Assembly (NCBI GenBank): GCA_944324725.1
Contig: CALUXJ010000002.1
Coordinates: 1 to 47,551, forward strand
From: an uncultured Acholeplasmatales bacterium
GTDB taxonomy: Bacteria; Bacillota_I; Bacilli_A; Acholeplasmatales; Anaeroplasmataceae
Reading direction: 5' to 3'
DNA length: 47,551 nt
Of the stretch, positions 24,892-27,429 are shown in pieces; positions within the stretch are counted from its first letter, which is position 1; each line of letters begins with the position of its first letter. The notes beneath the pieces were generated by a model that saw nothing but the letters and a program-made list of their open reading frames with translations, did not search any database and was not told where the DNA came from. A program made the translations under genes and the position numbers.

Positions 24892-27318
24892 CTAGCAGCC
24901 AACAACGTTGATTTGGAAGGTAGCTTGGATATCCTTATCTAAATTCACACTAGCTTGATAAATACCAATAGCGTTAATGTCAGCTGGTAATTCTAGTTTT
25001 CTTTTATCTAAGCGAATACCATTTTGAGCATCAAACTCATCAACTATTTGTTTAGAAGTTACATGACCAAATAGCTTGCCATCTGCTCCTTGTTTAATAT
25101 AAATAGTTACCGTTTTGGCTTCTATTTCATCTTTTAATTTTAATAAAACATTTCTTCTATTTTCTTTATCAATAGCTTCTTGCTTCTTGTTTTCCTCTAA
25201 TTGTTTTAAATTAGCATCATTACATAAAATGGCATCTCCGTTGTTAATTAAGAAATTACCATAGCCATTATTAACTTCAAGAATTTCATCTTTCTTACCT
25301 TTACCTTTAACATCCTTTAAAAGAATAACCTTCATTTTTTCTTCACCTTCTACATCATAATCCCGTTTTAATATTTGTAATAAAAGTTCTTTAACTTCAT
25401 TAATATTTTTATCCTTAATTTGACAAGCAGCTGCTTGTAAGTGACCACCGCCACCCATTTCTTCCATGATAATTTGAACATTGACACTATCTAAGCTCCG
25501 AGCTGAAATAGCCACCTCATCTTCTGCAAGATAAGCTAAGGTAAAGCTAGCATCTACTCCTTCTATTGTAAGTAAACGATCAGATATTTTAGCTAATATT
25601 GTTCTATCATCATAAATCTTATCAATTAAAGCAACCGCAAAATGATTAAAGACAATTTCGCTCTTAACCACCGCTTCAGATATTTCTTTTTCTGAATTAT
25701 ATGAATCACGTAAGACACGTCTAACTTTTACCATATCGGCGCCATTTTCCTTTAATGTGGAAGCAACTTCAAAGGTTCGATATCCCGCCCGATAAGTGAA
25801 GTAATTAGTATCAACAACCATACCACAAAGCATTAGTGTTGCCTCAATAGCTGAGATTTTTGGGCTAGGAGCAAACATAAACATTTCACTAATAAGTTCT
25901 ACTGTTGAAGAGGAGTAAGTTTCAACATAACTCATTTCAACATTAGTAAAATCAACATCACCAACCCGGTGGTGATCAATAACTGCCACATGCATAGCTT
26001 TACTAATAATTGATTTAAACATAACTAAGTTAGGTGATTGCGTATCACAAACAACCAATAAAGTATTAGAATTGAGGTAATTTAACGCCCTAGCTTCATC
26101 TAAAATATTATCCACAAAATCAGGTTGCTCAGCAATTAATAAATCGTAAGCTTTTTTAGCTGTAACATCTAAATTGTCATACTCTAAAGCAATCTTAGCA
26201 TTAGCACCAAAACTACCAACTAACCGCAAGGCCCCAATAGTAGAACCAAAAGCATCACAATCTGCCTTATCATGAGCCATAATCAAAACTTTTTCATAAG
26301 AATCAGCTAGTTCTCTTAGAGAATTGGTTTGCATTCTAACCGCTACCAAAGTATTTTTTTCTAAGGCATTAACCTGTCCACCAATATATTGAATTTTGGC
26401 ACCTTGAATGTTAACAACCGCTTGGTCGCCACCCCGTTTTTCGGCCAATTCAACCGCATTTAAGGCTAAATCACCAACTTCATTTGGCTTTAAATCATAA
26501 GAAGCAATACCAACACTAATCGTAGTTTTTAATCGACTAGCTTTAGATAAATCTCTAATGCGATCTAAAATTACAAATTTATCATCTATCATCTTAGTTA
26601 GTTCTTCCCGGTCTGTAATAATTAAAATGCGATCATCATCTATACTTTGGAAAAAACAATTGTAGGACTGCGCCCAATTAGAAATTTCACCTAAAATTTG
26701 CCCACTAATAGTAGTCTTATCTTGAACATCATAACGTTTTAAACTTTCTTCTAAGTTATCAACAACAATAATACCAATCGCAATATTACGATTTAAATAC
26801 CTGGTTTTTAATTCCGTTTCTTTCGTTGTATCAAAGAAATATAAAATTTTATTATCTTTCTTTAAACTAAATTCATAGGTTTGTCCACCGTCTTTTAAAA
26901 CAAAACTTTTTTCATTTCCTAAAACGAATTCCTTTAAATCCGGACTAATCTCACTTAAAGGTACGTCCTTTAAGCTTTTCTTTAAACATTTTTGGGCATA
27001 ATCATTAAACCATTTAATATTATAATCCTTATCATAGATCATAATACCAATAGGTAGCGTTTGAAAGGCCATATCACCAGCCGCATTAATATGATACGTG
27101 GTATCTGACCAAATTTCGATTTGCTCCCTTAATTTTTTTACCTCTTTTTTCTTCAAACTATAAAGATAGATGAAAATAACAATAAGAGCTAAAACTAAGG
27201 TCACAACTCCTAATATTAAATAAGTAGTCTTTAATAGTGGTTGAACATCAGTTGAATAAAAATACCAAAATATTCCTGAACCACCTAAAGCTATTACTGC
27301 GAATAATAGATACGTCAA
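24892..27318 (-). CDS. gdpP-rplI: GdpP c-di-AMP phosphodiesterase fused to ribosomal protein L9
   Basis: One frame of 808 codons joins two proteins that are normally adjacent. Residues 1-661 are GdpP: two membrane helices (to about residue 53), a PAS-like domain, a degenerate GGDEF domain (SIDDDRIL in place of GGDEF) and a DHH/DHHA1 phosphodiesterase ([25 protein letters not shown] near 448, [12 protein letters not shown] near 620), which hydrolyses c-di-AMP. Residues 662-808 are a complete L9 beginning [17 protein letters not shown]. The lengths match separate homologues. AAGGTGA lies seven bases before the internal ATG at 25335, so free L9 could be made as well. The start is TTG 27318 behind GAGGTGAT. 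A promoter lies at 27339-27367. Confidence 0.95.
25343..25349 (-). promoter_or_regulatory. Internal Shine-Dalgarno for L9 inside the fusion
   Basis: AAGGTGA, seven bases before ATG 25335. That ATG is exactly where L9 homologues begin (MKVILLKDV). Initiation there would yield a 147-residue stand-alone L9 from 25335 to 24892. Confidence 0.6.
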
Positions 27319-27338: not shown

Positions 27339-27367
27339 ATTATACCAATTAATCAGTTATTTTACAA
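27339..27367 (-). promoter_or_regulatory. gdpP-rplI promoter
   Basis: -35 TTGTAA (27362-27367) and -10 TATAAT (27339-27344) with a 17-base spacer, about 20 bases before the TTG start. It follows the rpsR terminator, so this unit is transcribed on its own. Confidence 0.75.
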
Positions 27368-27401
27368 TGAAAGTGGCAAAAAAGCTTAGGATTGGGCAAT
27401 A

Positions 27402-27429
27402 AAAAATCACAAGTTGCCTTGTGATTTTT
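27402..27429 (-). terminator. Intrinsic terminator after rpsR
   Basis: A perfect 12-bp stem (27402-27413 against 27418-27429, AAAAATCACAAG) with a four-base loop, followed on the minus strand by T residues. It separates the rpsF-ssb-rpsR operon from gdpP-rplI. Confidence 0.88.

Follow-up and report, generated by a model that had tools for sequence, protein, structure and literature searches.

What does a bacterial gene produce when the c-di-AMP phosphodiesterase GdpP and ribosomal protein L9 (bL9) are encoded in one open reading frame? Such a gene lies in the 47,551-nucleotide stretch of DNA analyzed here (the window; contig CALUXJ010000002.1 of assembly GCA_944324725.1), which comes from an uncultured Acholeplasmatales bacterium of the family Anaeroplasmataceae. 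On the minus strand, positions 24892-27318 form a single uninterrupted frame of 808 amino acids that encodes a complete GdpP followed by a complete L9, and there is no stop codon between them. Its features, in the direction of reading, are these:

27329-27323, minus strand: GAGGTGA ahead of the TTG start of the fused gene
24892..27318, minus strand: fused gdpP-rplI frame, 808 aa, with its TTG start at 27318 (NCBIfam NF011110, 759 bits, cut-off 707)
27169..27315, minus strand: putative GdpP membrane anchor, two long hydrophobic N-terminal helices, residues 2 to ~50 (from sequence and predicted helices)
26830..27090, minus strand: PAS domain of the GdpP type (PAS_GdpP, PF21370), residues 77-163
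26401..26769, minus strand: GGDEF domain of the GdpP type (GGDEF_GdpP, PF24898), residues 184-306
25819..26292, minus strand: DHH catalytic domain (PF01368), residues 343-500
25366..25614, minus strand: DHHA1 domain (PF02272), residues 569-651, with a GGGH motif at 623-626
25336..25365, minus strand: linker, residues 652-661, variable and flexible, containing the internal ribosome site
25343..25349, minus strand: internal Shine-Dalgarno (SD) sequence AAGGTGA, followed by 7 bases and then ATG
25333..25335, minus strand: internal ATG, which is M662 and codon 1 of L9
24892..25335, minus strand: complete ribosomal protein L9 (TIGR00158, 111 bits, cut-off 58.6; also Pfam and a structure match to 1div)

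The first part of the protein has the domain order of GdpP (membrane helices, PAS, degenerate GGDEF, DHH and DHHA1), and the second part consists of Ribosomal_L9_N (residues 662-707), a connecting helix (701-733) and Ribosomal_L9_C (727-806). All six Pfam domains exceed their family cut-offs. Structure prediction places helices at residues 2-21 and 27-80 at the N-terminus, and by homology with GdpP this helix pair is presumably inserted in the membrane. The predicted model is of an ordinary L9 (TM-score 0.84 to 1div, by target length) attached through a flexible linker (pLDDT under 50 at residues 656-660) to a phosphodiesterase whose catalytic domain matches GdpP structure 5xsi (TM-score 0.89 by target length). 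The basic, glycine-containing loop and the Gly-Tyr motif of the L9 N-domain are intact in the window (KGKGKK and NGYGN). Residues H349, D353, D355, D425, D448-H449-H450 and D503 are intact in all 146 aligned fusions; from its domains and these catalytic residues, the GdpP part is predicted to hydrolyze c-di-AMP. A diadenylate (c-di-AMP) cyclase is present in 35 of the 36 genomes checked, including phytoplasmas and the window's own genome, which has one such gene. In genome G218 (family f23), where locus L081 keeps the fused GdpP-L9, we did not find a diadenylate cyclase. A preliminary description of this DNA had read a full GdpP and a full L9 in one frame and had placed AAGGTGA seven bases ahead of the ATG of L9. 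The frame, the Pfam matches and related genomes all agree with the first statement, and the second is correct (25349-25343, then ATG at 25335).

The GdpP-L9 fusion itself is not new, because it is already a named NCBIfam family. The window protein is a member of NF011110/PRK14538, 'putative bifunctional signaling protein/50S ribosomal protein L9', which it matches end-to-end (52-833 of 838) with 759.2 bits against a threshold of 707. The window gene and NF011110 share both domain order and the full-length match. The title of NF011110 implies a single bifunctional protein and does not mention an internal start or two products, and the family is silent on a single ancient origin and on the lineages, described below, whose tail is freed of L9 duty. 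We found no publication describing the fusion; a paper on minimal translation (PMC4014445) marks 'fusion' genes only in its supplement. A search of viral contigs for the fusion gave no match.

The fusion is widespread among relatives. Our comparison set comprised about 150 genomes, in which junctions were aligned for 150 fused loci, 146 of them with a single L9. The window's family is represented by 55 genomes, of which 53 have a detectable L9; in 51 of these the fused copy is the only one. A search of related genomes for the same fusion, as proposed in the preliminary description, found the fused frame in 53 of 53 L9-bearing members of the family, with no stop between the domains in any sister genome. 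Fusions are present in ten family-level groups (f1-f5, f9, f16, f19, f23 and f24) and include those of Onion yellows phytoplasma OY-M, Ca. Phytoplasma pruni, Haploplasma modicum ATCC 29102, an Anaeroplasmataceae bacterium and a Ca. Izimaplasma bacterium. The remaining sampled families of the class have separate L9 frames of ~150 residues; for example, the genes are separate in Bacillus, Lactobacillus, Paenibacillus, Turicibacter, a Haloplasmataceae bacterium and Ca. Bathyoplasma.

This distribution bears on two simpler accounts of the locus. The window's genome is a 96-contig assembly, and 4-base overlaps between the two genes are frequent in separate relatives, so an assembly or sequencing error might have fused two overlapping genes. 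We regard this as having practically no chance of being correct, because the frame is uninterrupted in every genome of the family that has an L9 and across ten family groups, and because the fusion occurs in isolate and complete genomes (OY-M phytoplasma, H. modicum ATCC 29102); the relatives and isolates carrying the same open frame refute it. The preliminary description had proposed that the two genes were joined when the gdpP stop codon was lost. We reject a recent stop loss in this genome, because the fusion is ancient, being shared family-wide and clade-wide and already known as a named family.

In a careful GdpP tree every fusion falls on the same side of one branch, with modest support (75/74), and in a first, quick tree the separate f7 genomes (Ca. 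Bathyoplasma) were nested within the fused group. We favor a single origin as the simplest reading of the spread, short of proof; the fused arrangement would then have been retained from the ancestor of a large bacterial group whose members are associated with gut, soil and plants. The two f7 loci with separate gdpP and rplI (L103 and L104) are either the nearest unfused outgroup or a possible reversal.

The preliminary description had stated that gdpP and rplI are separate in Bacillus, and in Bacillus and its relatives they are indeed a separate, commonly overlapping pair. The commonest junction in separate relatives (29 of 79 loci) is a 4-base ATGA overlap, in which the gdpP stop overlaps the rplI start in another frame and the rplI ribosome site lies inside the 3' end of gdpP. 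More than twenty distinct junction spacings occur in these relatives. The Bacillus-type gdpP (yybT)-rplI pair thus shares with the window its genes, their order and an L9 ribosome site inside gdpP, but it consists of two frames with their own stops, and its GdpP ends without an L9 module. As the two frames are out of register where they overlap, the fusion is better explained by a small indel there than by simple loss of the stop: a small net insertion or deletion in the overlapping spacer would have brought the frames into register and preserved the ribosome site. The fusion would have arisen once, long ago, with the L9 ribosome site already inside gdpP at the overlapping junction.

If L9 is still made as a free protein, the signals for its initiation should be visible inside the fused frame. 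The first codon of L9 in the 146 fusions that have no second copy is ATG in 137 cases and GTG in the other 9, so that wherever Met was replaced (9/9) it was by another start codon; within those nine genes, which are loci from few lineages, GTG accounts for just 13% of the Val codons. The mean anti-SD pairing energy, from a simple duplex calculation, is −9.1 kcal/mol at the internal L9 start versus −9.2 kcal/mol at separate L9 genes, and it averages −1.3 kcal/mol at other codons of the same fused genes. The internal L9 site is within the best 5% of its own gene in 92% of cases. Three other columns of the alignment that are frequently Met (80-98%) have pairing energies of −1.6, +0.2 and 0.0 kcal/mol. 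The GGAGG-like site occupies different codon phases (107/36/3), which differ across families; because the phases differ and the peptide varies, it is the DNA signal and not one peptide that has been kept. The internal start codon and ribosome site are therefore conserved beyond what the peptide requires, as is characteristic of a two-start gene. The exceptions are in phytoplasmas, where loci L192, L199 and L201 keep the ATG almost without an SD, and L197 has a weak SD. With these exceptions, conservation of the internal AAGGTGA-ATG in relatives, anticipated in the preliminary description, is borne out (ATG or GTG in 146/146, with a strong SD), although the genomes are related, many are metagenome assemblies, and the counts are therefore non-independent trials. 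An SD and an ATG within a gene are by themselves no proof of use.

It is also conceivable that the internal site is unused, and that L9 enters ribosomes as GdpP-L9 or after proteolysis of the linker. The predicted flexibility of the linker and the weak internal sites in three phytoplasma loci would suit this explanation, but we consider it very unlikely, because the internal signal matches separate L9 genes in strength and has disappeared precisely in those loci that have a separate L9 (see below), because every Met substitution at codon 1 retains a start codon, and because, as a matter of general knowledge about copy number, it is implausible that every ribosome should carry a membrane anchor. 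A domain search found no second L9 in the window's genome, whose assembly is 89% complete; a separate rplI elsewhere is what the preliminary description had said would weaken its proposal of two products. That proposal is supported as likely by our comparison of the internal start and of the joined frame.

Second in-frame starts that give a shorter C-terminal product are known in bacterial genes such as clpB, infB and cheA. The gene proposed here resembles them in having two in-frame starts, one stop and a short C-terminal product. It differs from them in that its shorter product is an entire ribosomal protein, its longer product is a membrane-anchored second-messenger enzyme, and use of its internal start is predicted by sequence comparison.

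The joined frame is maintained as well. None of the 150 linkers contains an in-frame stop, and in the other two frames stops occur in 117 and 120 of them. The widely varying junction spacings of separate relatives stand in contrast to these stop-free fused linkers. A fusion that is merely tolerated, as the preliminary description had allowed, would have the internal start alone matter, with the L9 tail of GdpP a harmless by-product that was never removed. The strong conservation of the internal start signals is compatible with this, since free L9 alone could explain the L9 part, and L9 is dispensable in laboratory strains of Escherichia coli (PMC4399890, a delta-rplI strain), which suggests that an unusual L9 could be tolerated. 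We nevertheless think it improbable. Linkers never have a stop despite single-base routes to one and stop-rich alternative frames, separate relatives alter the junction freely, and in two lineages the tails that have been relieved of L9 duty, beside a separate L9, are still open and under purifying selection.

Those two lineages are natural experiments on the purpose of the tail. Both have a second, free L9 gene just downstream of the fusion, one lineage being in family f1 (genomes G011 and G044) and the other in f9 (G406, G412 and G502, and also locus L223). In a tree of L9 sequences the tail and free copies pair within each lineage, with support of 93 and 88, which is moderately firm evidence, given the short alignment, for two independent tandem L9 duplications in unrelated lineages. 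In both, the free copies have the conserved loop and begin with an ATG behind a ribosome site. At the fused copies the ribosome site is gone (+0.5 to −2.4 kcal/mol), and in f9 the fused copy also lacks a start codon, having ACT or AAG instead. Loss of the start signals only from the fused copy is what is expected if the internal start served only free L9.

The Gly-Tyr motif has been lost from the tails of the duplicated loci (L067, L068, L129, L130 and L223). In the other fusions G24 is present in 145 of 146 and Y, F or H at position 25 in all 146, and tails without Gly-Tyr probably no longer bind rRNA normally. They remain in frame and under purifying selection. By pairwise Nei-Gojobori estimates, dN/dS in the tail is 0.115 between L129 and L130 (95% interval 0.06-0.20), a constraint as strong as that on GdpP (0.148). 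Between L068 and L223 the tail has a dN/dS of 0.322 (95% interval 0.19-0.52), a weaker constraint than that on GdpP (0.152), which could reflect slow decay; the L068 tail is still predicted to have the L9 fold (mean pLDDT 90). Since these tails lack Gly-Tyr and yet are constrained, the tail seems to serve GdpP without the ribosomal signature. In the same f9 genus (g89), L9 was not found in G236 (97% complete) or G503 (65% complete), and GdpP was not found in G236, whose c-di-AMP cyclase is present; the whole gdpP-rplI locus has possibly been lost in this L9-duplicating genus.

We consider it likely that the gene has two starts and yields two products, both under selection, and that it derives from a single ancient fusion. 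Initiation at the TTG at 27318 would give a membrane-anchored c-di-AMP phosphodiesterase with a C-terminal L9 module, and initiation at the ATG at 25335, behind AAGGTGA, would give ordinary free L9 for ribosomes. The age of the fusion and the conservation of its internal start, ribosome site and joined frame are established by comparison among genomes, and we infer that both proteins accumulate; free L9 and the GdpP tail appear to be two separately selected products. For the tail, ribosome docking or enzyme control would be candidate functions. A tentative suggestion, which we hold to be possible but not probable, is that the L9 tail enables the full-length protein to dock on or sense ribosomes, where it would compete with the free L9 that the same gene encodes, and so couples c-di-AMP turnover to translation at the membrane. 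In genomes with a single L9, where the N-domain motifs of the tail are kept, GdpP-L9 would dock on ribosomes or on assembling 50S subunits, and in lineages with a second L9 the tail would have become a domain of GdpP only. An alternative, also speculative, is that the L9 tail serves GdpP as a folding, oligomerization, structural or regulatory domain.

Production of both proteins would mean that the cell obtains a component of its ribosomes and a membrane enzyme for an essential second messenger from a single gene, and that free L9 is probably overlooked in the organisms with the fusion when annotation pipelines report one 'bifunctional' protein. The two parts have stayed joined in ten family-level groups, even in phytoplasmas with their strongly reduced genomes. 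Because selection is seen separately on free L9 and on the joined tail, a link between ribosomes and c-di-AMP is directly testable.

The genes around the fused gene, named from their translations, are the usual ones for this locus: rpsF, ssb and rpsR upstream, and dnaB (dnaC) and prfA downstream. Two possible transcription signals lie between rpsR and the fused gene:

27401..27429, minus strand: terminator-like hairpin AAATCACAAG-GCAA-CTTGTGATTT followed by a T run
27339..27367, minus strand: promoter-like TTGTAA-17-TATAAT with TG (extended -10), just before the fused gene

The hairpin was seen directly in the sequence and is missing from the list given by our promoter and terminator scan, and the promoter is a consensus match only; together they weakly suggest that the fused gene is transcribed separately. 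A scan for an internal promoter specific to L9 gave matches near chance level. Co-transcription of gdpP and rplI has been reported in Streptococcus pyogenes (PMC3711813).
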